Source of the DNA: a virus
Direction: 5' to 3' (one strand)
Length of the DNA: 21,292 nt
IMG/VR virus record: IMGVR_UViG_3300042391_000079
Location: 1-21,292 of that record
Numbering within the stretch: position 1 is the first letter of the stretch; each line of letters begins with the position of its first letter. Under the pieces are notes generated by a model. The model did not search any database and was not told the DNA's origin. It saw only the letters and a list, made by a program, of their open reading frames with translations. Below, one piece after another: positions 4,023 to 17,389 of this stretch. The position numbers and the translations under genes were made by a program.

Positions 4023-4057
4023 ATATCGTTATTGTGTAATACGTGGATTATTTATTG

Positions 4058-4065
4058 TATATTTG
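4058..4065 (+). promoter_or_regulatory. candidate Bacteroidota promoter (-7 element TATATTTG) for the HNH gene
   Basis: TATATTTG fits the TAnnTTTG -7 consensus, and a TTATTG at 4029-4034 lies 23 bases upstream as a possible -33 box. The element ends only four bases before the ATG at 4070, so transcription would begin at or next to the start codon, giving a leaderless or nearly leaderless mRNA. That would let the mobile endonuclease gene carry its own expression signal. The call rests on motif match and position only. Confidence 0.5.
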
Positions 4066-4069
4066 TATT

Positions 4070-4591
4070 ATGGAAATATATAAAGACATAATAGGGTATG
4101 AGGGTTTATACAAAGCTTCAACAAAAGGAAACATTAAAAGTGTTGTTAAACGTAATGGTAAAGATATAATATTAAAACAAGGCATAGATAAATGCGGTTA
4201 TTGTATTGTAACATTATGTAAAGATAAAAAAAAGACAACAAAAACTGTTCATAGATTAATAGCACTTACATTTTTATTTGAAACCGATATACAAGTAAAT
4301 CATAAAGATGGAAACAAAAAAAATAACGATGTTAGTAATTTAGAATTTGTAAGTGCAAAACAAAATATGAACCACGCAATTAAAAGTGGATTATTAAAAT
4401 TTAATACTACAAAAATAGCAGAAGAAAAAAGAAAAGTAGTTTTACAAATTGATAAACAAACAAATGAAGTTATAAATACTTTTAAATCAGCACACGAAGC
4501 ATCAAGATTAACTGGATTTAATAGAGGGAATATATCAACTTGTTGCAGATTAAACAAACAAATGTATAATTATATTTGGCAATATAAATAA
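4070..4591 (+). CDS. free-standing HNH homing endonuclease (NUMOD4-HNH-NUMOD1), 173 aa
   Basis: A selfish DNA endonuclease that cuts a recognition site in related phage genomes and spreads by repair copying. Residues 2-25 (EIYKDIIGYEGLYKAS, then GNIKSV) form a NUMOD4 DNA-binding module. Residues 59-102 form the HNH core: VHRLIALTF, VNHKDGNKKNND with His78 and Asn85/86, then SNLEFV. Residues 123-173 (VVLQIDKQTNEVI, SAHEASRLTGF, ICT-type helix and NYIWQYK end) form an intron-encoded-nuclease repeat/NUMOD1 module. A GTG at 4043 is in frame but overlaps the promoter-like element and adds residues not seen in the family, so ATG 4070 is chosen. Its base composition is more AT-rich, with more AAA and ATA codons, than its neighbours. 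It lies between the ParB stump and the small terminase. Confidence 0.92.
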   Translation: MEIYKDIIGYEGLYKASTKGNIKSVVKRNGKDIILKQGIDKCGYCIVTLCKDKKKTTKTVHRLIALTFLFETDIQVNHKDGNKKNNDVSNLEFVSAKQNMNHAIKSGLLKFNTTKIAEEKRKVVLQIDKQTNEVINTFKSAHEASRLTGFNRGNISTCCRLNKQMYNYIWQYK

Positions 4592-4601
4592 TAAAAATAT
4601 A

Positions 4602-4976
4602 ATGGGAAAGACAAAAGAGCAACACGAAAAAGAAATACTTGAAATAATAGTAAAGAATAAAGTAATGAAAATAAATCATATTTTTCAACACTATACTGAC
4701 TTACAGCACTCACAGTTTTATAATTTAGAATTGGATAAATCGGAGAGTATTAAAGAAGCAATATCAACAAACAAAAGTAAAGCAGTAAGTTATATGCTTA
4801 ACAAGTGGGTAGGTTCTGATAATGCTACTTTACAAATATCTGCATTCAAGGTATTATGCGAAGACGAAGACCGAAAGAAATTATCGATGCAATTTGTTGA
4901 AAGTGAAAACAGCCACCAGATTAGAAAGTTTGAAGTAGAAATACTAAAGCCAAAAGATGAGGATACAAACGAATAA
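4602..4976 (+). CDS. probable terminase small subunit / DNA-binding packaging protein, 124 aa
   Basis: A 124-residue helical, charged protein directly upstream of the large terminase and overlapping it by 20 bases, the usual position of the small terminase that recognises packaging sites. The N-terminal part (KEQHEKEILEIIVKNKVMKI, then FYNLELDKSESIKEAI) looks like a helix-turn-helix region. The segment SYMLNKWVGSDNATLQISAFKVL (longer than a simple motif, about residues 66-88) resembles the oligomerisation part of Bacteroidota phage small terminases as I remember them. It starts 10 bases after the homing endonuclease stop. The assignment is mostly positional. Confidence 0.65.
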   Translation: MGKTKEQHEKEILEIIVKNKVMKINHIFQHYTDLQHSQFYNLELDKSESIKEAISTNKSKAVSYMLNKWVGSDNATLQISAFKVLCEDEDRKKLSMQFVESENSHQIRKFEVEILKPKDEDTNE

Positions 4977-6111
4977 AGTATTTGAACATTTAGAGAATAG
5001 CACAAAGAGAATAACAATAGAGCAAGGCGGTACCAGAAGTGGCAAAACCTATAATATTCTAATGTGGCTAATATTTGGTTATGCTTTAAAAAATCAAGGC
5101 AAGACAATAACCATTTGCAGAAAAACATATCCCTCACTTCGTGCCAGTTCGATGAGGGATTTTTTCGATATACTGCGACAGTATGATATGTATGATGAAG
5201 CAGACCATAACAAGAGCAATTCAGAATATCGCCTTGAGGGCAACCTTTTTGAGTTTATAAGTTTAGACCAGCCACAGAAAGTAAGAGGCCGTAAAAGGGA
5301 TGTATTGTATATTAACGAAGCTAATGAGTTATACTTTGAAGACTGGCAACAGTTAATATTTAGAACAACTGAAAAGGCAATACTTGACTACAACCCAAGT
5401 GACGAGTTTCATTTTATTTATGATAAGATAAAACCAAGAGACGATGCAGATTTTTACATAACAACCTACAAGGACAATCTATTCTTATCAAAAGAAATAG
5501 TAAGTGAAATAGAGCGTTTAAAGAACATTGACGAGAACTACTGGAAAATATATGGACTAGGACAAATAGGTTCATCACAAGCCCTTATATTTAGAATTAA
5601 CGAATGTGCTGCAATACCAGTTGATGCAAAGTTTTTAAGTTATGGAATGGACTTTGGTTTTACAAATGACCCGACAACCTTAATCGCTATTTATCAGCAA
5701 GGCGATAATATTTATTTAAAAGAATTAATATTTCAAACTGGTTTAACAAATAGAGATATAGACGAAAAATTGAAGTTTCACGAAATAGAGCGCAAAGAAA
5801 TATTTGCAGATAGTGCAGAACCAAAAAGTATAGAGGAATTATATCGAATGGGTTGGAATATTAAACCAGCTACAAAAGGACAAGGCTCGGTTAATATCGG
5901 AATAGATATGATGAAGCGTTACCAAATACACGTTACCAAAAGTAGCGTGAATATGATTAAAGAATTCAGAAACTACAAATGGCAAGAAGACAAAAACGGA
6001 AACATATTGAACGTGCCGGTGGATATGTTTAATCACACAATAGATGCAGTTCGATATGGCTTATATGATAAGTTAGCAAGACCGAATTACGGGAAGTATG
6101 CAGTAAGATAA
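4957..6111 (+). CDS. terL: terminase large subunit (ATPase and nuclease), 384 aa
   Basis: The packaging motor: an ATPase that drives DNA into the prohead through the portal and a nuclease that cuts concatemers. The ATPase half shows Walker A GGTRSGKT (24-31), a Walker B-like RDVLYINEAN (114-123, with Glu121 as the catalytic carboxylate and Asn120 in place of the usual Asp), and a coupling-motif region around ILDYNPSDEF (142-151). The RNase H-like nuclease half shows GMDFGFTNDPTTL (Asp232), FADSAEP (Asp285) and TIDAVRYG (Asp363). The length is slightly short of the usual 400-500 residues, as is common in this phage group. The start ATG lies inside the small terminase gene, and the KVFEHLENSTKRI opening before Walker A is typical. 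Confidence 0.96.
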   Translation: MRIQTNKVFEHLENSTKRITIEQGGTRSGKTYNILMWLIFGYALKNQGKTITICRKTYPSLRASSMRDFFDILRQYDMYDEADHNKSNSEYRLEGNLFEFISLDQPQKVRGRKRDVLYINEANELYFEDWQQLIFRTTEKAILDYNPSDEFHFIYDKIKPRDDADFYITTYKDNLFLSKEIVSEIERLKNIDENYWKIYGLGQIGSSQALIFRINECAAIPVDAKFLSYGMDFGFTNDPTTLIAIYQQGDNIYLKELIFQTGLTNRDIDEKLKFHEIERKEIFADSAEPKSIEELYRMGWNIKPATKGQGSVNIGIDMMKRYQIHVTKSSVNMIKEFRNYKWQEDKNGNILNVPVDMFNHTIDAVRYGLYDKLARPNYGKYAVR

Positions 6112-6143
6112 TCACAAATAAAAAACAATAACGTTACATCAAT

Positions 6144-6803
6144 ATGAAATTAATAGTACCATCAAATTTAACCGAAATCAGTCTTTATAAATATCAAGAA
6201 TATTTAAAAGCATTCGAGCAAAGTAAAACAGAAAAGAATGCAGAGACATTCCTATCCTTAAAAATACTTGAAATATTTTGTGAACTAACAACGGAGCAGA
6301 GCAAACAAATAAGACAAGACGACGCGAATAAAGTAGTCAAGATTATAGTAGACTTGTTAGTGCAAGAGCCACCACTAGTAGAACGGTTTACACTTGAGGG
6401 AATAGAATTTGGATGGGTGCCGAAGTTAGACGATTTAAACTTTGGAGAGTTTTTAGATTTGAATAATAATATCACAAGTTGGGAAAATGTAGTCATAGCG
6501 ATGGGAGTTCTTTACAGACCAATTACAGAACAGACCAAAGAGGGCAAATATAATATCGAAGAGTACAACGGTGACAAGTATCATCACTTATTAAAAGATA
6601 TGCCTATTAGTGCCGTATTTGGTGCGAATGTTTTTTTTTGGAATTTAGGAACGGATTTGGTGACAGCTACCCACAAATATTTGGAAAAGGAATTGAGCAA
6701 GATGAGTTTACAGCAGAAGCACAATTTACAGCAGAATGGGGATGGTATAGTTCACTATTTGAACTTGCTAAAAACGACATTACAAAAGTTAAAAAGGTAT
6801 TAA
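6144..6803 (+). CDS. tail assembly chaperone, zero-frame product (gpG-like), 219 aa
   Basis: A 219-residue acidic protein starting MKLIVPSNLTEISLYKYQEYLKAF in spirit (first 20: MKLIVPSNLTEISLYKYQEY). The MKLIVP opening, the central FGWVPKLDDLNFGEFLDL, VLYRPIT and MPISAVFGANVFF segments match a family regularly found in Bacteroidota siphophages in the chaperone position (recollection). Such proteins bind the tape measure during tail assembly and are not in the virion. The gene contains a run of nine T at 6631-6639, and a second open frame in -1 overlaps its last 165 bases, so a longer gpGT-like fusion is also expected. If ribosomes do not shift, the C-terminal 54 residues include a NGDGIVHYLNLLK end that also looks family-like. 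It starts 32 bases after terL. Confidence 0.75.
   Translation: MKLIVPSNLTEISLYKYQEYLKAFEQSKTEKNAETFLSLKILEIFCELTTEQSKQIRQDDANKVVKIIVDLLVQEPPLVERFTLEGIEFGWVPKLDDLNFGEFLDLNNNITSWENVVIAMGVLYRPITEQTKEGKYNIEEYNGDKYHHLLKDMPISAVFGANVFFWNLGTDLVTATHKYLEKELSKMSLQQKHNLQQNGDGIVHYLNLLKTTLQKLKRY
6631..6640 (+). promoter_or_regulatory. probable -1 programmed frameshift site (T9 G)
   Basis: The zero-frame codons are GTT TTT TTT TGG, so the heptamer T TTT TTT fits the X-XXY-YYZ slippery rule exactly at 6632-6638. The -1 frame is open from 6611 to 6907 and has no other good slip site in the overlap. A shift here gives a fusion of 165 zero-frame residues plus 89 from the -1 frame (254 aa). Downstream, only a weak 4-pair hairpin (GGTG 6659-6662 with TACC 6668-6671) is seen, so a stimulatory structure is not obvious. 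Confidence 0.65.
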
Positions 6804-6907
6804 AAATAAATATGCATTTGTGTTTTAAAATGCTTTGCTATAAGATAAGCAAAGACCAGTTGAGAACAAAACAAATGGAAAAAATAAACAAGAAATATGG
6901 AAAATAA
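6638..6907 (+). CDS. tail assembly chaperone -1 frame extension (gpT-like part), 89 aa
   Basis: This frame has no ATG at its 5' end; the first possible ATG lies near 6812, inside what looks like the conserved part. It is therefore best read as the downstream part of a frameshift fusion entered at the T run. It encodes EFRNGFGDSYPQIFGKGIE, a short duplicated FTAEAQFTAE element, then EWGWYSSLFELAKNDITKV and a helical basic end (KINKKYGK). The 'W-x-W-Y-x-x-L-F-x-L-A-x-x-D-I' pattern recurs in the second chaperone frame of related phages as I recall. In the lambda paradigm the T part contacts the tail tube protein while the G part holds the tape measure. Its stop overlaps the next gene by 11 bases. 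Confidence 0.65.
   Translation: MEFRNGFGDSYPQIFGKGIEQDEFTAEAQFTAEWGWYSSLFELAKNDITKVKKVLKINMHLCFKMLCYKISKDQLRTKQMEKINKKYGK
6707..6736 (+). repeat. 12-base direct repeat, two copies
   Basis: TTTACAGCAGAA occurs at 6707-6718 and again at 6725-6736, separated by GCACAA. In the -1 frame this encodes FTAE-AQ-FTAE; in the zero frame it gives two LQQ-type segments (SLQQKH, NLQQNG). It is an in-frame 18-base step in both overlapping frames, so it looks like a small local duplication that both frames tolerate. Confidence 0.6.
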
Positions 6908-7367
6908 AAAAGGAGTTCAATCGCTTTACGATTTAATAGACACGATGAATTACGAACTGGAAAGCAATCCATTTGTAAACAAAGTGACTATAGGAACATT
7001 AACAGAAATAGATTTAGCAAAGCAAACTATTTTCCCATTGAGCCATATTACTTTGAATAGTGTAAGGCATAACGAAAATACACTATCATTTGATTTGACT
7101 ATTTTTAATCTAGATATTGTAAACATATCAAAAGATGGTGAAATAGGCGTTTACGGCAATGATAATTTATTTTACATACTAACTAACCAACTGTATGTAA
7201 TCAATCGTCTAGTGAGCAGACTACGTCAATCTACTTTACACAAAGATGGTTGGGAATTAGATGGCGACCCGACAAGCGAAGTAGTAGATAAAGAGACAGA
7301 AAATATGTTAGCCGGTTATGAGACAAATATAACAGTAATAATTCCAAATGACATAAACAAATGTTAG
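6897..7367 (+). CDS. phage neck or tail-completion protein (tail terminator candidate), 156 aa
   Basis: A 156-residue protein with the pattern of a Bacteroidota-phage structural family: GVQSLYDLIDTMNYEL near the start, TEIDLAKQTIFPLSHI (37-52), a beta-rich centre, VINRLVSRLRQSTL and a C-terminal LAGYETNITVIIPND. The long first helix, central sheet and final strand with the position next to a gp10-like gene suggest a tail terminator or a head-tail joining protein (inference). It begins 11 bases before the end of the frameshifted chaperone frame and its last 7 bases overlap the next gene, so it belongs to the same translational unit. No catalytic motif. Confidence 0.6.
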   Translation: MENKKGVQSLYDLIDTMNYELESNPFVNKVTIGTLTEIDLAKQTIFPLSHITLNSVRHNENTLSFDLTIFNLDIVNISKDGEIGVYGNDNLFYILTNQLYVINRLVSRLRQSTLHKDGWELDGDPTSEVVDKETENMLAGYETNITVIIPNDINKC

Positions 7368-7915
7368 ACTTAAGAATAAAATACAAGCACCTTGAAGAGG
7401 CTATGAATGCATTTGGAGATAAGGTAGTGGCCGATGCAAAGCAGAACTTAAAAGACCGTAAAAAAGTAGATACTGGAAAACTAGAAAAAAGTGTAGTCAA
7501 TAACGGTATTAAGTTTTCAAAAAGAAGTTTGGTATTAAATATTTCGATGTCAGATTATGGAGCATTTGTAGACAAAGGTGTGCGAGGTGTTGGTGGCGTA
7601 AGACTAACTACAAGTAAATTCAAGAGAACAAATAACAAGGGCAAGTTGTGGAAGCAGAACGGTGGCGATAGTCCATTTAGTTATAAAAAAGGAATTAAAC
7701 CAAGCGTGAAACATTTTGTAGAGTGGAGCAACAAAAGAGGCATAAGTCCTTATGCAGTACGTGAGGCAGTTTATCATCAAGGATTGAAACCGACATACTT
7801 TTTAAAAGATGCAGTTGAAGACAATATTAAATTAGCACCAGAAGAAATCTTAAAAGCATTTGGATTGGATGTTGAAAGTACAGTACGTGAAATAATAAAA
7901 GAAAACATAAAATGA
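7361..7915 (+). CDS. HK97 gp10-like head-tail joining / tail-completion protein, 184 aa
   Basis: A basic protein with the hallmarks of the HK97 gp10 / phage minor tail family: an N-terminal helix with AMNAFGDKVVADAKQNL, the VDTGKLEKSV motif (36-45), a beta hairpin and the S-DYGAFVDKGVRG motif (64-75). These are followed by a lysine-rich segment and a C-terminal SPYAVREAVYHQGLKPTYFL helix region. Family members connect the head to the tail or complete the tail end. At 184 residues it is somewhat longer than the usual 110-150 because of the insert at about 80-125. It is coupled to its neighbours by overlaps of 7 and 4 bases. Confidence 0.8.
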   Translation: MLDLRIKYKHLEEAMNAFGDKVVADAKQNLKDRKKVDTGKLEKSVVNNGIKFSKRSLVLNISMSDYGAFVDKGVRGVGGVRLTTSKFKRTNNKGKLWKQNGGDSPFSYKKGIKPSVKHFVEWSNKRGISPYAVREAVYHQGLKPTYFLKDAVEDNIKLAPEEILKAFGLDVESTVREIIKENIK

Positions 7916-8985
7916 AAGTAATATCAACAAGGTCACCGTTTCAAATATCCGTTGGAGACCCAACAGCCATAGCATCAAAAGTAGAGTTATTTATTTGGAA
8001 TAAAGGAACAGCTATGCCTACATTCCCAACAAACGTAATGAGTGAAAATATACCATCAGTTACACAGTTGGAAATGACTTATAATATATCACCATTTATA
8101 GTAGAGTATATCAATCAAATAGAGCCAAACAAATCGTCTACAACAGTTACAGTTGAAAGTAATTCAAATTGGGCTTACTGCTTTGCTAAAGCATACTACA
8201 CAACAGATGGAAGTACCTTTACTTTATTTTCTGAAGATTTATACGTTTGTTTAAGTTCATTTACCAACACAAGTGCCGGAGCAAACTTTGATATTTCAAA
8301 CTATCAATATGTTCTTTTAACTCCAGACGATAAAATAAAAATAACTACCTACACAAATTTCGCAATTCCTTACTACAATTTTGTTTGTGAGCGTGATACA
8401 GTAAATAATTACATTGTGAAATATTATAACGCTGCTGGAAGTGTAATAAATTCACAAACTATTTTAACTGCTGGAGCGATTGAAGAATACAATTTTAGAA
8501 TACCATTGGCTTATACTTCTGCAAGTGTGCAAATGAAAATATTTTTAGGTGCTACTTTAATTCACGAAGTAGATTGCGAATTATTATTAGAGTGCAAGTA
8601 CACACCAAATAATGTAGACTTTGTAAATTCTTATGGTGGATGGCAGTCGCTTGTATTTTTTAAAGCAAGTCAAGATAGCATCGATATAAAGAGCACAGAC
8701 TACAATTTAATGCAATCAAATTGGAATTATAACCCAAAGATAGGGCAAAGCAAAACAATGAATACAAACGGACAGCAAACGGTCAAATGCAATTCTGGAT
8801 GGGTAGATGAAAACTATGATTTATTAATTCGTGATTTATTGTTGAGTGAAACTATTTTATTGAATGGAAAACCAGTTACAGTAAAGACCAAACAGACGAA
8901 TTATAAGACCTATTTAAAGGACAAAAATATCAATTATACAATAGACTTTGAATATTCAAATAACTTGATTAATAACATAGTGTAA
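7912..8985 (+). CDS. distal tail structural protein, 357 aa
   Basis: A beta-rich, Thr/Asn/Tyr-rich protein without enzyme motifs. It opens MKVISTRSPFQISVGDP with KVELFIWNKG and has a typical QLEMTYNISPFIVEYI segment. The last third holds CKYTPNNVDFVNSYGGWQ, FFKASQDSI, GWVDENYDLLIRDLLLSE, LLNGKPVTVKT and INYTIDFEYSNNLINN. This set recurs in Bacteroidota siphophages between the gp10-like gene and the large tail-tip gene (recollection), so a distal tail (Dit-like) or tail-tip hub role is probable. The stop shares a base with the next start (TAATG), so the two are coupled. No transmembrane segment. Confidence 0.65.
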   Translation: MKVISTRSPFQISVGDPTAIASKVELFIWNKGTAMPTFPTNVMSENIPSVTQLEMTYNISPFIVEYINQIEPNKSSTTVTVESNSNWAYCFAKAYYTTDGSTFTLFSEDLYVCLSSFTNTSAGANFDISNYQYVLLTPDDKIKITTYTNFAIPYYNFVCERDTVNNYIVKYYNAAGSVINSQTILTAGAIEEYNFRIPLAYTSASVQMKIFLGATLIHEVDCELLLECKYTPNNVDFVNSYGGWQSLVFFKASQDSIDIKSTDYNLMQSNWNYNPKIGQSKTMNTNGQQTVKCNSGWVDENYDLLIRDLLLSETILLNGKPVTVKTKQTNYKTYLKDKNINYTIDFEYSNNLINNIV

Positions 8986-11582
8986 TGAATAGAAACGTAG
9001 AAATTTATATTAAAAAGAATACGCAAGTTTATGCTGGTATTACAACGTTTGACAATACTTCGCCATTCCTTACATTTAGAGATACCATCGGTGGATTTAT
9101 AGGAAATCAATATACTGGACATTATGCTATAATGACATCGGGTGATAATGTAGGAGCAACAAGTTGGATAGTATCAAACACATCAAGTATTATAACTTTA
9201 GAAACACCAATAGTCGTATTGGCAAGTGACACCTTTGCTATTTACAGAAGTGATTATCAAAGGTTGGATTTATTCAAAGAAGAGAAAATAAGCGTTACTA
9301 CACAAATACAGAATTCAAACGACATAGCAAAATTATATACTGATTATTCACAGTCTTTTAATATTCCAGCATCAAAAAGAAATAACGATATTTTAGAGTA
9401 CTGGTTCGAAAGTTCACTTGATAATGGTTTTGACCACCGAAGACGATACGATGCTTATATCGAAATTGATACGCATAGGTTTAAGGATGGAAGCATACAA
9501 TTAGAAAATGCTAAAGTAAAGAACGGACAACCAGACAGTTTTAATGTTACTTTTTACGGCAACCTTACACAATTAAAAGACCTTATCAAAGACGATAAAT
9601 TGAATAGTTTAGATTATTCAGTAACAAATCACACTTATGATAGCAGTAATGTAATAACAAGAATAGTTGCACCGACTACAACTGGAGACATCAAATATCC
9701 TTTAATTGGAAATGCAAAGAAATACTTTTATCAAGACCCAGTTTATCCTTTAGATGACATTACAACAGTTGCCGGAGCAGTCAAGTGGAATGATTTATTT
9801 CCAGCCATAAAAGTATCAAGTATATTTTTATACATTTCACAAAAATACGGCATAACCTTTACTGGTTCTTTTTTAAGTTTAGACCAATATCGAAAGTTGT
9901 ATTTATATTTGAAGTCTTCACTTTCTATGAGTGAGCAGACACAAAGACTGCCTTTGAATTTTACGACTATGACTGCTACATTCCCAGAAATGAATTTAGC
10001 AAGTGATACTTTGACAACACGATGGGATTGGGTGCCACCGACAGCGATGGGAGACATTTATAATAAAGTTGAAATAAGAATTACACCAGTTGTGGCGACA
10101 GATATTTACAGCGTATTCGTTTATAAAGATGGTGAACTTTACAAGTCGTATCTTAACAAAACTGGAACGACAAATTTAAATGCCGATACAGTAAGACGAA
10201 GTACAGATGCAAACCCACATCAATATACTTTCAGACTTTCAAGTGATGTTAGTATGACATTTTCACCAAGAGTAAAATTGACACGTAGGTATGGTGTTTT
10301 ACCTTATGGTACCGAAGTAGCATCAAATGATACAGCAGAAAACCCAGCACAAACAACAGTACAAAATATTGACATAGTAAACTATTTACCAGATATGAAA
10401 ATATCTGATTTTATTACTGGAATAATCAAGGCATTTAATTTAATGATAATTCCAAAAGGTAACAATACTTTTGAACTAAACCCACTTGAAAGTTTTTATA
10501 ATGCTGGTAAAATTATCGACATAACACAACACGTTTATTCAGATGATTTAACGATTGAAAAACCGAAGTTATTTAAGAGCATAGAGTTCAAGTACGAAGA
10601 AAGCATAAACGTGCTTAATCAAGCGTATAAAGGGCTTTACGGTTCTGCTTATGGTGACTTAACATATACAAATCCACAGACAACAGAAAACGCAACCTAT
10701 GAAATAAAAGTACCATTTGAAAACGTATTATTTGAAGTGCCAAAAGAGGGAAAACTATTTCAAACAGCAACTTTAATAGACAAGGATTTAAAGCCTTATA
10801 TTCCAAAACCAATGCTTATCTATTGCAACGGTTTAGTATCACCTACATTGGCCGGAGCAGATAGAATTTACGTGACTAATTCTGGAGGTGGCACCCAACT
10901 AATTACAAATTATAATAGATTTTCAAATGAGTTTAATTCTTTGCCATCAGACCCGAGTTTATCGCATTTAATGACGATGAATTTTAGTAACGAGCAAAGC
11001 AGTTGGTATAACGAACTTGCACCCGAAGGACTTTACAACAGACATTATCAAAACTATATTGAAAACCTTTATAATATCAAAACAAGAGTAATAAAAGTAA
11101 AAGCAATTTTACCAGTTAGCTTGTTAGGCAGTACTGTAGAGAATGGTTATGGAGAAGCATTAGGAATAGCTTTGAATGATAGGTTAATAATCAGAAATAA
11201 AAGATACATTATAAATTCATTCACTACTGATTTAACAAGTGGCGAGGCATCATTTGAATTGGTTACTGATTATCGGGGTGCAGATGCAGCATTAAGTGTT
11301 GGATATAGATTTGCAAGTTTAGGGAATATTGAAGTAGATAATCAACCAGCAAAAGTCGATGAAATTATTTACTTGAATGATTATGATAGTTTTGATATTT
11401 TAGCAGCAAGTTCTTTTCTTACTTATACGATATCAAGTAACAATACAAAGGATTTAGAAGTTGAAGTAAATGTGGCTCCAAATGGAACTGGATTGGATAG
11501 GTATGATGCGATGCAGATAGTCTATTATAAAAAAGGTGTAATAGCCAAAACAGAATATTTAACCGTTAAACAATTAGCATAA
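8985..11582 (+). CDS. tail tip / baseplate protein with C-terminal Ig-like (BACON-like) domain, 865 aa
   Basis: A large virion protein, probably the tail-tip hub. After a short beta-rich N-terminal domain (1-90) comes the segment RLDLFKEEKISVTTQIQ, then YTDYSQSFNIPASKRNNDIL and FDHRRRYDAYIEID, a set I associate with baseplate proteins of flavobacterial phages. The middle (about 170-720) is beta-rich with few cysteines and no clear hydrolase motif, so no lysozyme or peptidase domain is claimed. The last 90 residues, with SFDILAASSFLTYTIS, VEVNVAPNGTGLDRYDAMQI and ending YLTVKQLA, look like a BACON/Ig-like domain, which in Bacteroidota proteins is linked to carbohydrate or mucin binding. It could therefore touch host glycans (inference). 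The stop overlaps the next ATG by one base. Confidence 0.7.
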   Translation: MNRNVEIYIKKNTQVYAGITTFDNTSPFLTFRDTIGGFIGNQYTGHYAIMTSGDNVGATSWIVSNTSSIITLETPIVVLASDTFAIYRSDYQRLDLFKEEKISVTTQIQNSNDIAKLYTDYSQSFNIPASKRNNDILEYWFESSLDNGFDHRRRYDAYIEIDTHRFKDGSIQLENAKVKNGQPDSFNVTFYGNLTQLKDLIKDDKLNSLDYSVTNHTYDSSNVITRIVAPTTTGDIKYPLIGNAKKYFYQDPVYPLDDITTVAGAVKWNDLFPAIKVSSIFLYISQKYGITFTGSFLSLDQYRKLYLYLKSSLSMSEQTQRLPLNFTTMTATFPEMNLASDTLTTRWDWVPPTAMGDIYNKVEIRITPVVATDIYSVFVYKDGELYKSYLNKTGTTNLNADTVRRSTDANPHQYTFRLSSDVSMTFSPRVKLTRRYGVLPYGTEVASNDTAENPAQTTVQNIDIVNYLPDMKISDFITGIIKAFNLMIIPKGNNTFELNPLESFYNAGKIIDITQHVYSDDLTIEKPKLFKSIEFKYEESINVLNQAYKGLYGSAYGDLTYTNPQTTENATYEIKVPFENVLFEVPKEGKLFQTATLIDKDLKPYIPKPMLIYCNGLVSPTLAGADRIYVTNSGGGTQLITNYNRFSNEFNSLPSDPSLSHLMTMNFSNEQSSWYNELAPEGLYNRHYQNYIENLYNIKTRVIKVKAILPVSLLGSTVENGYGEALGIALNDRLIIRNKRYIINSFTTDLTSGEASFELVTDYRGADAALSVGYRFASLGNIEVDNQPAKVDEIIYLNDYDSFDILAASSFLTYTISSNNTKDLEVEVNVAPNGTGLDRYDAMQIVYYKKGVIAKTEYLTVKQLA

Positions 11583-11734
11583 TGATAGGACAGATTTTAG
11601 AATTATTAAAAGCAAGTGAACACTATGCTGAAAGTGAATACATAGAAATAGCAAAGGGAAAAAACAAACATCCTAAAACTTGGAGAGAAGCATTTAAACA
11701 ACATCAAAGACTACTGAAATGGCACAAGAAATAG
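11582..11734 (+). CDS. small protein preceding the tape measure, 50 aa
   Basis: A 50-residue basic helical protein (MIGQILELLKASEHYAESEY, with KTWREAFKQHQRLLKWHKK at the end). It starts in a TAATG overlap with the tail-tip gene and its last 16 bases overlap the tape measure gene, so it is fully embedded in the tail operon. A small gene with a 'TW-x-EAF-x-x-H' pattern ahead of the tape measure is something I remember in related phages, but its role is unknown. A chaperone for the tape measure or a translation-coupling leader are both possible. Confidence 0.7.
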   Translation: MIGQILELLKASEHYAESEYIEIAKGKNKHPKTWREAFKQHQRLLKWHKK

Positions 11735-13623
11735 ACATTAATTTAAACGTAAAAACAGAACAAGCCGACAAGTCACTTGGTAGTTTAAAAAAGCAATTTA
11801 GAGAGGCACAGCAAGAAGTTCAAACACTTGCTGATAAGTTTGGAGCCACTTCTGCAGAAGCTATTAACGCTGCCAAAAGGGCTGGAGAATTAAACGATAG
11901 AATTGGTGATGCTAAAAGTTTAACCGAAGCGTTCAATCCCGATGCTAAATTCAAATCTTTGACTGCATCGCTTTCGGGTGTTGCTGGTGGCTTCGCTGCT
12001 TATCAAGGTGCGATGGGATTGGCTGGTGTTGAAAGTAAAGATTTAGAAAAGCAACTTTTGAAAGTTCAATCGGCTATGGCTATTGCACAAGGGCTGCAAG
12101 GACTTGGAGAAGCAAGAGACAGTTTCAGACAATTAAAGGCGGTTGCCATCGATGCTTTTAAGGGCATAAAAACAGCAATTGGAAGTACTGGAATAGGTTT
12201 ATTAGTTATTGCTTTAGGAACGATATACGCTTATTGGGATGATATTAAAGAAGCAGTAAGCGGAGTAAGCGAAGAGCAAAAGAAATTAAATTCACTATCA
12301 CAAAAAAATGTAGAGCAAGAGAATGAAAAATTAAAAACAATAGGCAATCAAGATAATATTTTAAAGCTACAAGGCAAATCTGAAAAGGAAATATTAAATA
12401 TTAAAATCAGACAAACAGATGAGGCAATACAAGCTACTGAAATAAATCAGAAAAATCAAATTGAAACCACAAAGTTAGCAACAGAGGGAGCAAAGAGAAA
12501 CTATGAAATGCTAAAATCATTTATTGACTTTGTAAGTATTCCACAAAGGTTTTTATATGAAACAGCATCAAAGGCGATAAACAATATTATTGATTTATTA
12601 AATAAGATACCCGGAGTAAATATAAAATCAAAACTAGATGAAACGCTAGGAGACAAAGCGAGTGATTATTTAGCAAAGTTAGGATTTGACCCAGCAGAAA
12701 CAAAAGCGAAAGGTGATGCTGTTGTAAAAGAAAGTCAAGACGCATTATTAAAATTAAAAAATGATAGGGCAGCATATTTATTAGGAGTTCGTGATATAGA
12801 CAAACAAGCGGCAAAAGATGCCTTACTAACAGACGAAGAGAAAAAAAAGAAACTAGACGAATTAGATAAGCAGTATAACAAGCCAGTAGATGAAAGTTTT
12901 GATATTTCTGGACTAGAAGCATTAGAGGCATCAAATCAAGCTAAAATAGATGCTGATTTAAAGTACAAAGAGAGTTTGCTTTCTGCACAACAATTATTTG
13001 AATTACAAAATGCACAAATAATTTTTGATAGTGCCGATGCTGTTGCAGCACGAGAAGAGGAACGAAGAGCAAGAGCATTAGAAAAGTTCACAGAGCAAAA
13101 AGATGCTTTACTTGGACTCGCATCAAATTTGGCAAATGGCTTGGAAGCGGTCGAGGGATTGAGTAATAAAAAATCAAAGGCAGCAGCAACAATAAAAAAA
13201 GGAATTGCATTAGTAGACATTGCAATTAGCACAGCAACTGCATTAGGTTCGGCAGTAAAAGAGGCAAGAGCATCGGCAGCAGCAGCACAAGCATTATTTC
13301 CATTAGTGCCGGGTGTTGGAATAGTTGCTGGAATAGCAAGTTATGCAAGTTCGGCAGCGATGGTTCTTGGAAACGTAGCAAAAGCAAAAGCCATATTAAG
13401 CGGAGGCGGTGGCGGTGGTGGCGGTGGTGTTAGTGCCGGAGGTGGTGGAGCAATGCAAACAGCACCAACTTTTAACGTAGTCGGCCAAGGTGGTGCAAAT
13501 CAAATAGCCGAGGGCATTGGGGCAAGAGACACACAACCAGTTAAGGCATTTGTTGTTGGTGGCGATGTAACTACACAGCAATCGTTGAATATGGGAATAG
13601 TACAAAATGCAACTTTAGGATAA
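11719..13623 (+). CDS. tail tape measure protein, 634 aa
   Basis: The protein that sets tail length and is ejected at infection. The N-terminal region (about 5-150) is coiled-coil-like with Leu/Lys/Glu/Gln repeats (KSLGSLKKQFREAQQEVQTL). A hydrophobic segment at about 154-173 (IGSTGIGLLVIALGTIYAYW) could enter a membrane. Residues 180-450 are charged helical repeats, 480-560 are Ala-rich with a second weakly hydrophobic stretch (ALFPLVPGVGIVAGIASYAS), then a Gly run (562-570 and 574-577). The end (FNVVGQGG-ANQIAEGI, PVKAFVVGGDVTTQQSLN) is a conserved C-terminal block of Bacteroidota tape measures. At about 1.5 A of tail per residue, 634 residues would mean a tail near 95 nm. Its start lies inside the 50-aa gene. 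Confidence 0.88.
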   Translation: MAQEIDINLNVKTEQADKSLGSLKKQFREAQQEVQTLADKFGATSAEAINAAKRAGELNDRIGDAKSLTEAFNPDAKFKSLTASLSGVAGGFAAYQGAMGLAGVESKDLEKQLLKVQSAMAIAQGLQGLGEARDSFRQLKAVAIDAFKGIKTAIGSTGIGLLVIALGTIYAYWDDIKEAVSGVSEEQKKLNSLSQKNVEQENEKLKTIGNQDNILKLQGKSEKEILNIKIRQTDEAIQATEINQKNQIETTKLATEGAKRNYEMLKSFIDFVSIPQRFLYETASKAINNIIDLLNKIPGVNIKSKLDETLGDKASDYLAKLGFDPAETKAKGDAVVKESQDALLKLKNDRAAYLLGVRDIDKQAAKDALLTDEEKKKKLDELDKQYNKPVDESFDISGLEALEASNQAKIDADLKYKESLLSAQQLFELQNAQIIFDSADAVAAREEERRARALEKFTEQKDALLGLASNLANGLEAVEGLSNKKSKAAATIKKGIALVDIAISTATALGSAVKEARASAAAAQALFPLVPGVGIVAGIASYASSAAMVLGNVAKAKAILSGGGGGGGGGVSAGGGGAMQTAPTFNVVGQGGANQIAEGIGARDTQPVKAFVVGGDVTTQQSLNMGIVQNATLG

Positions 13624-13648
13624 TAAACCGTTATAAAAAAAAGAAACT

Positions 13649-14272
13649 ATGACTTTGATAGAATTAATAATAGACGAAACAATGGAATTAAGCGGAATAG
13701 ATGCAATCAGTATTGTAGAAAATCCAGCCATTGAAGAGAATTGGATAGCTTTAAAAAATGAGCAACCAAAAGAGTATCACTTTGCAGAAGTAGACAAAGA
13801 AAAGAAAATCATAATGGGTGCTATGTTAGTCCCAGATAAACCAATTTACAGAAGAGACGAAGACAACGGAGAGTATTACATTTATTTTAGTCAAGATACT
13901 ATTCGCAAATGTATGGAGTTATTTTTCCAGAACGGAAATCAAGGCAATGCGACTTTTGAGCATCAAGAGGCTATTACTGGTTTAACGATGGTTGAAAGTT
14001 GGATAGTTGAAGACACCGAAAAGGACAAAAGTAATTTGTATAATTTAAACGTTCCAGTTGGTACGTGGATGGGAACTATCAAAGTAGAGAATGAAGTAAT
14101 CTGGAATGAGTTTATAAAAACTAAAAAGGTAAAAGGATTTTCAATAGAGGGATATTTTGCTGATAAGGCAAAGTTACCACTTTCAAAAATAGACGACACC
14201 GATGCAGAAATCGAAGCGGGTTTACAATTATTAGAAATCATTAAAAAAATAGAAAATGCCAAAAGAAAATAA
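13649..14272 (+). CDS. prohead serine protease, XkdF-like (peptidase S78-type), 207 aa
   Basis: A capsid maturation protease that would cut the scaffold and possibly the capsid protein inside the prohead. The family pattern is clear: IMGAMLVPDKPIYRRDED (55-72), YYIYFSQDTIRKCMELFF (76-93), NATFEHQE with His105, MVESWIVED (114-122), GTWMGTIKV (138-146) and VKGFSIEGYF (161-170) with the probable nucleophile Ser165. At 207 residues it is the stand-alone size, with no fused scaffold. It is 25 bases downstream of the tape measure, and its last 17 bases overlap a 52-aa Cys-rich gene, close to the putative scaffold and capsid genes. Confidence 0.85.
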   Translation: MTLIELIIDETMELSGIDAISIVENPAIEENWIALKNEQPKEYHFAEVDKEKKIIMGAMLVPDKPIYRRDEDNGEYYIYFSQDTIRKCMELFFQNGNQGNATFEHQEAITGLTMVESWIVEDTEKDKSNLYNLNVPVGTWMGTIKVENEVIWNEFIKTKKVKGFSIEGYFADKAKLPLSKIDDTDAEIEAGLQLLEIIKKIENAKRK

Positions 14273-14414
14273 AGAATTTAAGACACCGAGCAGAACAAGT
14301 CCTACGACGAATAAGAGAGGCTGTTTATGTCCAGACAATAAGTATAGTCGCAAGTGCTGTGATGGTTCATTACAAGCACAAGGAATAGGCACTATTTACA
14401 GAAAAGCAGAATAA
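14256..14414 (+). CDS. small Cys-rich protein (RGCLCPD / RKCCDGS motif), 52 aa
   Basis: A 52-residue basic protein beginning inside the end of the protease gene and ending in TAA at 14412-14414. After a Ser/Thr/Pro-rich N-terminus it has RGCLCPDNKYSRKCCDGSL and AQGIGTIYRKA. Four cysteines in a C-x-C-x9-C-C layout would suit a zinc knuckle or disulfide-bonded minor head component. I recall the same motif in small proteins of many Bacteroidota phages near the capsid genes, which supports it as a real, conserved gene, but its role is not known. Confidence 0.75.
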   Translation: MPKENKEFKTPSRTSPTTNKRGCLCPDNKYSRKCCDGSLQAQGIGTIYRKAE

Positions 14415-14467
14415 AAATGCAAAATAAATAACTAAATCGTTATACACAAGAATAATAATTAATCAAT

Positions 14468-15046
14468 ATGAAAAACACAGACATTTTAAGCAGAATTAAT
14501 GCTTTGCTTTCACGAAATGTGAAACTAGAGCAACAGACTTTAGACAACGGAACGGTTGTGGAAGCAGATGCCTTTGCAGTTGGTGAGCCAATATTTGCAA
14601 TTGATGGTGAAAATAGACAGCCTTTGGAAGTAGGTAGCTATTTGATGGTAGATGGTAATACTTTAGAAGTTTACGAAATCGGTAAAATTGGTGAAATCGC
14701 TGCAAAAGTAGCAGAAGATGGCGAAATGGAAATGGCTGCCGAAGTACCAGTTGAAACAGTTGAGGAAGTAATCGACGAAGTAGTACTTGCAGAAGTACCA
14801 CCTACAATCGAAGAAGTAATTGCTTTGGTAATGGAAGCCGTACAAGTAAAACTTGACGAATTACAAGGTAAAATTGATGCCTTGATGGGAGCGCAAACTG
14901 AAATGAAAGCTACACTTTCTACAACAGTTGCAAAAAAACCATTAACGCACAAACCAACAGACACAAAAGTAAGTTTGACGAAAGCTAATTCTGGAAAAAA
15001 TCTTTCAGATACAGAAGCTAGAATTATGGATTTATTATCTAGATAA
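14468..15046 (+). CDS. probable capsid scaffolding protein, 192 aa
   Basis: A strongly acidic, low-complexity, helical protein. The N-terminal part has a beta-like VVEADAFAVGEPIFAIDGE and YLMVDGNTLEVYEIGKIGEI. The centre (about 80-125) is a Glu/Val-rich tract (EDGEMEMAAEVPVETVEEV). The region 118-158 is coiled-coil-like (VMEAVQVKLDELQGKIDALM). The C-terminus is basic and hydrophilic, as scaffolds often are where they touch the capsid protein. The position between the protease and the major capsid gene also fits. No sequence family is recognised with certainty. The 53-base gap upstream (14415-14467) shows no clear promoter or terminator. Confidence 0.6.
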   Translation: MKNTDILSRINALLSRNVKLEQQTLDNGTVVEADAFAVGEPIFAIDGENRQPLEVGSYLMVDGNTLEVYEIGKIGEIAAKVAEDGEMEMAAEVPVETVEEVIDEVVLAEVPPTIEEVIALVMEAVQVKLDELQGKIDALMGAQTEMKATLSTTVAKKPLTHKPTDTKVSLTKANSGKNLSDTEARIMDLLSR

Positions 15047-15057
15047 AAATTTAAGTT

Positions 15058-15423
15058 ATGGCAATAGTAGTAAACGGAACAGTAAATGCAATTCCAGCAG
15101 AAAAATTACCAGTTGGATACACACCACCTACGGTAACTATAATTCAAGATTTTCAGTACAGATATGACGTTGTTATTCCTTTGGTATTTTCAACGACTGC
15201 GACAAGTACAGCAGTAAACACAATGACTGCAATTGTAACGGCTACAAATAGTGCAGTAATAGCATTATTGGCTTTGGACTTTTTAGCAACAGCAACGGTA
15301 ACTTCTTACGCTGTTATTAATTCAATAGATACCAATTTAGCAAACACAACATCAACTTATTTATTAAGCACAACGACACCGAGTTATTTAGTGTCAGTAA
15401 CAATTTTCGTAAAAGCAATTTAA
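15058..15423 (+). CDS. hypothetical Thr/Ala-rich protein between scaffold and capsid genes, 121 aa
   Basis: A 121-residue protein with very few charged residues and much Thr, Ala, Val and Ser (VFSTTATSTAVNTMTAIVTA, then LLSTTTPSYLVSVTIFVKAI). It is predicted by eye to be mostly beta-strand, with no true membrane anchor despite the hydrophobic stretch at about 65-80. The location between the putative scaffold and the major capsid protein suggests a head component such as a decoration or cement protein, but this is positional inference only. The A-rich stretch before the ATG and its stop 27 bases before the capsid gene fit an expressed late gene. Confidence 0.6.
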   Translation: MAIVVNGTVNAIPAEKLPVGYTPPTVTIIQDFQYRYDVVIPLVFSTTATSTAVNTMTAIVTATNSAVIALLALDFLATATVTSYAVINSIDTNLANTTSTYLLSTTTPSYLVSVTIFVKAI

Positions 15424-15449
15424 AACAAAACAATTAAAACTTAAAAACA

Positions 15450-16361
15450 ATGGCTAATCAACCAACAATTACATCAAACTACGCCGGCGAATTCGCTGGT
15501 AAATATATCGCTGCTGCGGTATTAAGCGCAAATACTATCGCAAACAATGGAGTAACAGTTATTCCTAATGTGAAGTATAAAACAAACATCAAAAAATTAG
15601 TAAATTCTGGTATCGTTGCAGATGCTACTTGTGATTTTACTGATGCTGGAGTGGTAACACTTTCAGATAAAGTTTTGACTGTTGCTGAAAAACAAGTAAA
15701 CTTACAACTTTGTAAAACACCTTTCGAACAAGACTGGGAAGCATCATCTATGGGCTTTTCTGCTTTCGATGTTTTACCAGCTACATTTTCAGATTTCTTT
15801 ATTGCAAAAATGTTGAAAGACATCGCTTTAGATACTGAAACTTTCTTGTGGAATTCAACAAATGGTTTAGGTAAATTACTTAAAACAGATGGAGCAACTG
15901 TAATCGCTACACCTTTGGCTATTACTTCTGCAAACGTAATCGCTGAAATGGGCAGAGTTGTAGATGGTATTCCAGCATCACTTTATGGAACAGAAGATTT
16001 AAGAATTTATGTGTCTCAAAACGTTGCAAAAGCATATGTAAGAGCATTGGGTGGATTTAGCGTTGCTGCTACTTCAAACAATGGAGTTCAAGGTTTAGGT
16101 ACACAATGGTACAACGGTCAAGAATTGACTTTCGATGGTGTTCCAGTATTCGTTGCAAATGGTTTACCAGCAAACGTAATGGTAGCTGCTCAAATTTCTA
16201 ACTTATTTGTTGGATTTGGATTGGCTGATGATGCTAACATTATCAAGACTATTGATATGGCTGATTTAGATGGTTCTAAAAACGTTCGTTTCATCGCACG
16301 TTTCACAAGAGGTATTCAAGTTGGAATAGGTGCTGACTCTGTTACTTACGGAATAGCATAA
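15450..16361 (+). CDS. major capsid protein (HK97-fold type), 303 aa
   Basis: The main shell protein. It has the size and layout of Bacteroidota siphophage capsid proteins: an N-terminal arm (YAGEFAGKYIAAAVLSAN), TIANNGVTVIPNVKYKTNIK, a TCDFTDAGVVTLSDKVLTV strand pair, then LCKTPFEQDWEASSMG, a helical spine region (SDFFIAKMLKDIALDTETFL) and a C-terminal FVGFGLADDANIIKT, DGSKNVRFIARFTRGIQVG segment. No cleavable N-terminal delta domain is obvious, so scaffolding may be supplied by the upstream acidic gene. Its codons use more C-ending forms (ATC, TTC, CGT) and GCT than the neighbours, as expected for a very highly expressed gene. A good A-rich leader precedes the ATG. Confidence 0.85.
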   Translation: MANQPTITSNYAGEFAGKYIAAAVLSANTIANNGVTVIPNVKYKTNIKKLVNSGIVADATCDFTDAGVVTLSDKVLTVAEKQVNLQLCKTPFEQDWEASSMGFSAFDVLPATFSDFFIAKMLKDIALDTETFLWNSTNGLGKLLKTDGATVIATPLAITSANVIAEMGRVVDGIPASLYGTEDLRIYVSQNVAKAYVRALGGFSVAATSNNGVQGLGTQWYNGQELTFDGVPVFVANGLPANVMVAAQISNLFVGFGLADDANIIKTIDMADLDGSKNVRFIARFTRGIQVGIGADSVTYGIA

Positions 16362-16372
16362 TTAAATTAAAT

Positions 16373-16394
16373 GCCACCTTGTAAAATGGGTGGC
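16373..16394 (+). terminator. short hairpin after the capsid gene (weak terminator or processing site)
   Basis: GCCACC (16373-16378) and GGTGGC (16389-16394) form a 6-pair GC-rich stem with a 10-base loop, 11 bases after the capsid stop. The following bases (TATTTATTAACTTTTA) are AT-rich but do not make a clean U-tract. It could attenuate transcription between the capsid and tail tube genes, or stabilise the 3' end of the capsid message. Confidence 0.45.
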
Positions 16395-16422
16395 TATTTA
16401 TTAACTTTTAAAAGACAACAAT

Positions 16423-16947
16423 ATGAGTACTTGCTTAATGGCAACGGGGCGAAAGTTACCTTGCAAAGATGTAGTCGGTGGAATAAGAACAATCTACTTT
16501 GCTGATTATGGTACGTTGGGTACATTGACTATAACTGCTGGAACATTAACTGCGATTAGTGGTTCTGGGACAAACTTTTATAAATACGATGTAAAAGGTG
16601 GAAATAACTTGGAGCAAGTTATAACATCAAGTGATGAAAATGGCACAACTTTTTACGGTCAAACTGTTACGGCAGTATTAACTAAAATGGATGTGGCTAC
16701 ACAAGTAGAAATTCAAAAAATAGTTTCACAAAGACCTCACGTATTTATTGAAGACAACAACGGAAATTATTTTGCTGTTGGATTGACAAGAGGGTGCAAT
16801 GTGAATGGTACAATTTCAACCGGTACTGCTTTAGGTGATATGAATGGTTACACATTAACAGTTACAGCAGAAGAGCCTATTATGGCACCGTTTGTAACTT
16901 CTACGGTAGTAACATCACACGCATCACCAACACAAATAACACCGTAA
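16423..16947 (+). CDS. probable major tail (tube) protein, 174 aa
   Basis: A 174-residue beta-rich protein. It opens MSTCLMATGRKLPCKDVVGG with IRTIYFADYG. The central block GGNNLEQVITSSDENGTTFY and QTVTAVLTKMDVATQVEIQKI is followed by RPHVFIEDNNGNYFAVGLTR, GTALGDMNGYTLTVTAEEP and a Thr/Ser-rich end. This order (GGI-x-x-Y, GTTFYxQ, NGxY, GDxNGYT) is what I remember for tail tube subunits of Bacteroidota siphophages, which stack as hexamers around the tape measure. Here it lies next to the capsid gene and 2.8 kb after the tape measure, away from the other tail genes. It is the last gene before the strong terminator, which fits a high-level capsid-plus-tube transcript. Confidence 0.75.
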   Translation: MSTCLMATGRKLPCKDVVGGIRTIYFADYGTLGTLTITAGTLTAISGSGTNFYKYDVKGGNNLEQVITSSDENGTTFYGQTVTAVLTKMDVATQVEIQKIVSQRPHVFIEDNNGNYFAVGLTRGCNVNGTISTGTALGDMNGYTLTVTAEEPIMAPFVTSTVVTSHASPTQITP

Positions 16948-16969
16948 TTTTTTTTCATTTATTTTTTTT

Positions 16970-17001
16970 AAAGCCGTTGCAATCTGTAACGGCTTTTTTT
17001 T
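16970..17001 (+). terminator. strong rho-independent terminator
   Basis: AAAGCCGTT (16970-16978) pairs with AACGGCTTT (16988-16996). Two more inner pairs (G·T and C-G) leave a 5-base loop AATCT, giving an 11-pair stem, and a run of eight T (16994-17001) follows. This is the best intrinsic terminator in the window. It is unidirectional: the bases upstream of the stem are T-rich, so the opposite strand lacks a U-tract. The next gene's ATG begins at 17002, on the base after the T run. Confidence 0.88.
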
Positions 17002-17388
17002 ATGCAAAAAAATAAATTTATTCGTTACACAAGTATGACAGTAGTAAATCAAAATAATGCGACACAAACTTTCATCACTATTCCTAAAGGATATATTGAG
17101 GGCGAGCCTTTGACATTAAAATTAAAAGACGAACAGACAAAAGAAGTATTCACGTTTACAAATGCTGATGTATTTCCAAACGTTTACGATTTAGTTTATA
17201 TTCAAAAAACAATTAACTGCCTATATGAGGGTGCTTTCTTTGAGTTTAAGGTACTAAATGCAAGTGGCGATGAATTATATAAAGACATACTTTTTTCAAC
17301 AGCACAGAGCATCACAAACTATTCCATAAATTATCAAAAATATAATTCCTTGAATACAAATAATAACGATTTTATCGTAATTCAATAA
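17002..17388 (+). CDS. hypothetical structural-type protein, 128 aa
   Basis: A 128-residue beta-rich protein (FIRYTSMTVVNQNNATQTFI, GEPLTLKLKDEQTKEVFTF, FEFKVLNASGDELYKDILF) that looks like a single immunoglobulin-like or jelly-roll-like domain. It has no signal or membrane segment. Its ATG is immediately behind the terminator T run, leaving no room for a leader if the terminator works. A second Met at residue 12 (17035) is possible, but the IRYTSM-type opening looks native, so the first ATG is kept. It ends one base before the portal gene, suggesting a role in the neck or portal region (inference). The family is not recognised. Confidence 0.65.
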   Translation: MQKNKFIRYTSMTVVNQNNATQTFITIPKGYIEGEPLTLKLKDEQTKEVFTFTNADVFPNVYDLVYIQKTINCLYEGAFFEFKVLNASGDELYKDILFSTAQSITNYSINYQKYNSLNTNNNDFIVIQ

Positions 17389-17389
17389 T

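Follow-up and report, generated by a model that had tools for sequence, protein, structure and literature searches.

Possible RNA polymerase slippage at an obligatory stretch of at least nine T's in a two-frame gene of Flavobacteriia phages

In the viral DNA analyzed here (IMG/VR record IMGVR_UViG_3300042391_000079, positions 1 to 21,292, a stretch of 21,292 nucleotides referred to as the window), one gene on the plus strand raises the question of how, and by which machine, two overlapping reading frames may be joined into one product. The zero-frame ORF (6144–6803) encodes 219 aa and reads GTT TTT TTT TGG at 6630–6641; its T run is exactly nine nucleotides long (6631–6639), so that the site is spelled G-T9-GG. 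From 6611 onward the −1 frame is free of stops until the stop codon at 6905–6907, and no ATG precedes its conserved WGWY motif, which forms part of an EWGWY sequence. A −1 shift after the second TTT would join the N-terminal 165 residues, common to both products, to the 89 codons of the expressed part of the −1 frame (6638–6904), giving a fusion of 254 aa. The slip site lies 162 nt (54 codons) upstream of the zero-frame stop. A first-pass annotation, which had read these features from the DNA alone, was accurate as to the codons at the run, the extent of the −1 frame without an ATG at its start, and the length of the fusion. It had also proposed that the ribosome slips at the heptamer T TTT TTT (6632–6638), whose 3′ base is the eighth T of the run, and this second proposal is the one that the comparative data complicate.

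A run of nine T's is not rare in shuffles of the whole window that keep its composition, and the role of chance was therefore judged by conservation. Of the IMG/VR stretches, more than 560 match each of the two profiles, and the best 80 of each were taken; the run was counted from a protein-level anchor at the junction, with no T run required. An uninterrupted run was found at the junction in all 203 loci that carry both parts (T9 in 157, T10 in 39, and T12 in 7), and no site with seven or eight T's occurs among them, the only lengths being 9, 10, and 12. Two further scans added 27 loci (26 of them on new contigs), of which the distinct sites that were read are T10, and at least nine T's are present in all 230 loci of the final tabulation, L035 and L036 included. 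The run occurs in each of the three codon phases, having changed phase seven times on the tree, and in several amino acid contexts, and is never shorter than nine, while the heptamer T TTT TTT stands in the zero-frame phase at every site. Relatives occur in phages of Flavobacteriia and in marine metagenomes; the named ones are the Nonlabens phages P12024L and P12024S and contigs or genomes labeled Winogradskyella, Galbibacter pacificus, a Flavobacteriaceae MAG, and one “Epsilonproteobacteria” MAG. The conservation that the first-pass annotation had wished to see in an alignment of homologs is thus present in every locus, and neither of the findings that it held would refute a slip, homologs without the run or a fused gene with ten T's, turned up among the relatives.

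A more distant slip site was also sought in Flavobacterium phage 6H (L207, 10352–10927, minus strand), a distant relative by predicted fold only, but its 3′ end gave no confident alignment. There the homologous protein seems to continue only through changes of frame (TGT TTT TTC TAT stands near the stop), and the cause may be a shift of another kind or an error in the sequence.

The same counts bear on two explanations that need no slip during expression. Homopolymers are error-prone in some sequencing methods, and the gene could in principle be a broken one whose true run has ten T's within a single fused ORF. However, the same junction recurs in the 203 loci, which come from many studies, and the tabulated loci include a Galbibacter isolate genome (L127) and two isolated phages; an error of metagenome assembly or homopolymer calling cannot account for a run that the isolates share. 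Moreover, the run lengths preserve the zero frame, which remains under selection past the run, and conservation of the junction refutes this reading, to which we give practically no weight. Long homopolymers are also mutable, and the run might serve as a phase-variable DNA element that alters its length by replication slippage. Here, too, the lengths speak against the idea: every one of them preserves the zero frame and none of the 203 loci carries an out-of-frame length, so that phase variation was rejected as extremely improbable.

If the run is not an error, the question becomes whether both frames encode protein. Substitutions were counted by zero-frame codon position (1/2/3) in 54 independent pairs of relatives. 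Upstream of the run, the rates are.123/.079/.356. In the overlap (6639–6800), in which the zero-frame C terminus (NLGTDL...KLKRY) shares its bases with the −1 C-terminal domain, they are even and lower in total, at.078/.133/.132. Past the zero-frame stop, where only the −1 frame is coding, they are.058/.251/.097, concentrated on −1 third positions. In addition, 97% of 167 sequences have a zero frame that stays open for at least 45 codons; when each −1 protein was held and its codons were redrawn, as would apply if that protein alone were maintained, the figure was 4.4%. These patterns indicate that both frames evolve as protein over the overlap of some 55 codons, which bears out the earlier impression that both look like real protein and supplies the check for purifying selection suggested with it. 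They also rule out that the zero frame past the run is a mere by-product of the −1 protein, an idea that had its appeal in the way the zero-frame NGDG mirrors WGWY. The zero-frame extension has been lost or shortened in a few members, to 10, 28, 35, and 45 codons in L114, P12024L/S, L036, and L040, respectively. A further candidate feature is a +1-frame TAG just 3′ of the run (6646–6648), which would terminate the products of a one-base deletion or a two-base insertion; 166 of 167 sequences have a +1 stop no more than two codons from the run. It was considered as an evolved safety stop and set aside: since L197 lacks the TAG, it probably follows incidentally from the two encoded proteins.

How translation enters the −1 frame is constrained by where that frame could begin. 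Two separate genes, with the −1 ORF starting on its own codon or through translational coupling, are what the annotators of P12024L and P12024S assumed in giving the −1 part its own start, and a GTG or TTG does precede WGWY in 35 of 91 representatives. Yet there is no −1-frame ATG before WGWY in 90 of the 91, and none of ATG, GTG, or TTG in 55, and conservation of the −1 frame reaches back as far as the run (FFLxFR). Since the −1 frame lacks an ATG and is conserved to the run, translation must enter it at the run. An independent start was rejected on the start-codon counts, and we consider two separate genes very unlikely. The gene thus has the layout of the gpG/gpGT pairs of long-tailed phages, in which a −1 slip links overlapping ORFs and the second has no start of its own. 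These comparisons support as genuine and conserved a programmed switch to the −1 frame at the T run, which would give two proteins with a common N terminus.

The remaining choice is between ribosome and RNA polymerase. In the classical form of programmed −1 frameshifting, tandem slippage of tRNA-Phe on T TTT TTT would produce the same fusion, and there is much to recommend it: the heptamer is in the right phase at every site, ribosomal shifting of gpG/gpGT is widespread in long-tailed phages (PMC5009743), and the shifts of lambda, HK97-like phages, and P2 are described as ribosomal (PMC5009743, PMC3711429, PMC3091744). In phage P2 the ribosome shifts at T TTT TTG with no hairpin involved (PMC3091744), and U_UU.U_UU.Y motifs are functional in Escherichia coli (PMC4066793). 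Because the characterized gpG/gpGT pairs shift on the ribosome, a strong prior favors the ribosome over the polymerase.

The codons used within the run argue otherwise. Sites with two Phe codons (NTT TTT TTT TRN) are represented by 131 distinct sequences, every one of which spells the last Phe codon TTT and none TTC. A TTC there would be silent in the zero frame (Phe) and in the −1 frame (Leu) and would keep the heptamer as T TTT TTC, but would cut the run to seven T's. In the window this concerns base 6638, the eighth T, where a C would alter neither protein yet is never seen. At sites with three Phe codons that already have ten T's, the equivalent codon is TTC in 31 of 34. Where the three Phe codons are preceded by a codon with a final base other than T, a TTC would reduce the run to eight T's, and all 10 such cases again have TTT as the last Phe codon; with a further three-Phe context (AGT TTT TTT TTT CAT), which also has TTT, the count is 11 of 11. 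Such sequence counts do not represent independent events. On a tree of 161 sequences, however, the eighth T shows no change, compared with 11–30 at upstream Phe third positions and 11–24 at Leu first positions of the same gene, and the sites of the T10-C type account for about five changes, so that the contrast between TTT and TTC is not the outcome of one event. The rule that the junction obeys is a minimum of nine uninterrupted T's, not a heptamer. A constraint limited to the heptamer would allow TTC at the last codon, and neither the 131 sequences (no TTC) nor the tree (no change) shows such freedom. U_UU.U_UU.C and U_UU.U_UU.U are both shift-prone in E. coli (PMC4066793), and the heptamer thus does not explain the rule. 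For ribosomal slippage, it is awkward that T TTT TTC, silent at most sites and expected to shift, is never used at the last codon when TTC is common one codon later, past T10, and that the junction never has fewer than nine T's. Conversely, a U in place of a C in the A-site codon could alter ribosomal efficiency enough for selection to act on it, which weighs against the polymerase.

Signs of a ribosomal stimulator were sought as well. In 91 representatives, no conserved RNA structure was found upstream or downstream of the run, with a mean z of about zero on both sides, in keeping with the earlier remark that no strong hairpin is visible downstream; stimulatory structures are common at ribosomal sites but not obligatory. 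The distance to the zero-frame stop (162 nt) also exceeds the averages of 26–36 nt in two sets of phages (PMC10885494). We regard ribosomal frameshifting as a serious possibility, albeit one to which we assign well under an even chance.

Transcriptional slippage makes two demands that can be read from the alignments, an uninterrupted A or T run of about nine or more, the threshold reported for such slippage (PMC1088944), and avoidance of such runs elsewhere in every frame. The first was found in 203 of 203 loci. The second was assessed in 639 nonredundant ORFs of related loci against a codon-shuffled expectation: in this other coding sequence of the phages, runs of at least eight T's were seen once against 26.9 expected, runs of at least nine T's never against 6.6, and runs of at least nine A's four times against 41. 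Eight or more T's and nine or more A's are avoided whatever the frame, and the weakest avoidance is that of the in-frame ribosomal heptamer; avoidance of long T or A runs could also stem from replication slippage. RNA polymerase of E. coli prefers poly(T), needs at least seven T's, and inserts more often than it deletes (PMC6260861), and one inserted U leads to exactly the −1 frame. This part of the case rests on the polymerase of E. coli, whereas the relatives of the phage are found in Flavobacteriia. The conservation pattern fits slippage by RNA polymerase at least as well as slippage by the ribosome, and, from sequence comparison, transcriptional slippage is in our judgment the probable means of the frame switch, if by no great measure. 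Of the original proposal, the heptamer in phase and the entry into the −1 frame at the run both stand; the ribosomal mechanism is not established, as conservation follows the rule of nine or more T's and so fits transcriptional slippage better, a mechanism that the original proposal left out of account. The peptide across the junction that was to be sought by mass spectrometry would not separate the two mechanisms, because both yield the same fusion protein.

The model that we propose is that the gene (6144–6907) is decoded in two ways from a single start. The majority of the mRNA would direct synthesis of the 219-aa protein, while RNA polymerase would slip on a minority of transcripts at the obligatory run of nine or more T's, adding one U (U9 to U10), after which ordinary ribosomes would read on in the −1 frame and make the 254-aa fusion, with an 89-residue domain in place of the final 54 residues of the short protein. 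By analogy, the two proteins are probably tail assembly chaperones resembling gpG and gpGT. We infer four elements of this model: expression of the fusion, the polymerase in preference to the ribosome, which product is the minority, and the chaperone role.

The chaperone role is drawn from the two-product design and from the tail-gene surroundings. The gene adjoins that for the large terminase subunit directly upstream (4957–6111, plus strand; PHROGs head and packaging, E=2.8e-38), and does so also in P12024L and P12024S. It is followed on the plus strand by an ORF of 156 aa (6897–7367; from the ORF list and PHROGs search) that shares 11 bases with the end of the −1 frame, a neck- or tail-completion-like ORF (7361), two long ORFs, and the tape measure gene (11719–13623, plus strand; phrog_24676, E=6.7e-12). 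The slip gene is thus next to the terminase gene and four ORFs before the tape measure gene, not between the genes for the major tail protein and the tape measure, and the first-pass annotation was mistaken in placing it at the usual gpG/gpGT position. The order of the whole module (4957–19258) is unusual, running from terminase, slip gene, tail genes, and tape measure to protease, capsid-like, and portal genes; the portal gene (17390–19258) matches Pfam Phage_portal at E=9.8e-08, under the curated cut-off of that family. Farther upstream, an ORF just 5′ of the small ORF that precedes the terminase gene (4043–4591) resembles by eye a NUMOD4/HNH homing endonuclease (VNHKDGNKKNNDVSNLEFVS), and another (1174–1821) resembles, again by eye, a small protein of the DNA methyltransferase type (MKVLNLYACLGGNRLLWD).

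The zero-frame protein, which matches phrog_32199 (E=1.7e-15) and has homologs that keep the zero frame, is modeled confidently (AlphaFold2 pLDDT 91), and its predicted structure resembles many unnamed phage proteins; one protein annotated as a tail assembly chaperone is matched weakly in BFVD (E=0.04), whereas the PDB gave no match to a solved structure. No Pfam family matches the protein, and phrog_166, labeled “tail protein,” is matched by 6 of 39 relatives, at best with E=3e-5. The model of the −1 domain is poor (pLDDT 68) and was kept out of the fold searches. The label of tail assembly chaperone is plausible from the context of the gene. In PHROGs the two halves form separate families, phrog_32199 and phrog_38404, both labeled as of unknown function, and in P12024L (L041, 3001–3695) and P12024S (L042, 2001–2695) they are annotated as two separate, unrelated hypothetical genes; judged by its T9 run and −1 frame, each pair is one slip gene.

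Four known systems help to place the gene. Like gpG/gpGT of phage lambda, it has one start, a short product, and a −1 fusion with a C-terminal domain, and belongs to the tail module. Unlike in lambda, however, the slip lies 54 codons before the zero-frame stop, both C termini are under selection, at least nine T's are kept, the gene adjoins that of the terminase instead of standing just before the tape measure gene, and there is no fold match to solved structures. The E/E+E′ gene of P2, which shifts on the ribosome at T TTT TTG, shares a U-rich site, alternative C termini, and the lack of a downstream hairpin (PMC3091744), but P2-like sites have six T's and then G, whereas here there are never fewer than nine and the protein-silent interruption is never used. 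In Shigella mxiE, overlapping ORFs are joined by one nucleotide inserted at a U run, and the longer product is that of slippage (PMC1088944), as proposed here; mxiE is a regulator gene and not a phage tail gene, and in the phage family the C terminus of the short product is conserved as well. In Thermus thermophilus dnaX, a homopolymer of length nine is likewise the working element of transcriptional slippage (PMC1088944), although that run is of A's and the slippage product is the shorter one. Two-product tail genes as such are familiar; the obligatory minimum of nine T's, the dual-coding C termini, and the probable transcriptional slippage appear to be new, and a search of open-licence papers turned up no tail assembly chaperone said to depend on transcriptional slippage.

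Collectively, the comparisons suggest, at a confidence we would call evenly poised, that a large family of Flavobacteriia phages makes its tail assembly chaperone pair by RNA polymerase slippage on an obligatory run of nine or more U's, and not by ribosomal frameshifting, with a stretch of about 55 codons in which both C termini are under selection. The annotation is corrected as well, as the split PHROGs families and the two-gene annotation of P12024L and P12024S describe the halves of one gene. The gpG/gpGT shift is a textbook example of ribosomal frameshifting. If the proposal is true, a widespread phage family attains the same two products at transcription, a case like that of dnaX in which evolution would have exchanged the machine and retained the product, and the family would offer a natural system for the study of polymerase slippage in Bacteroidota.
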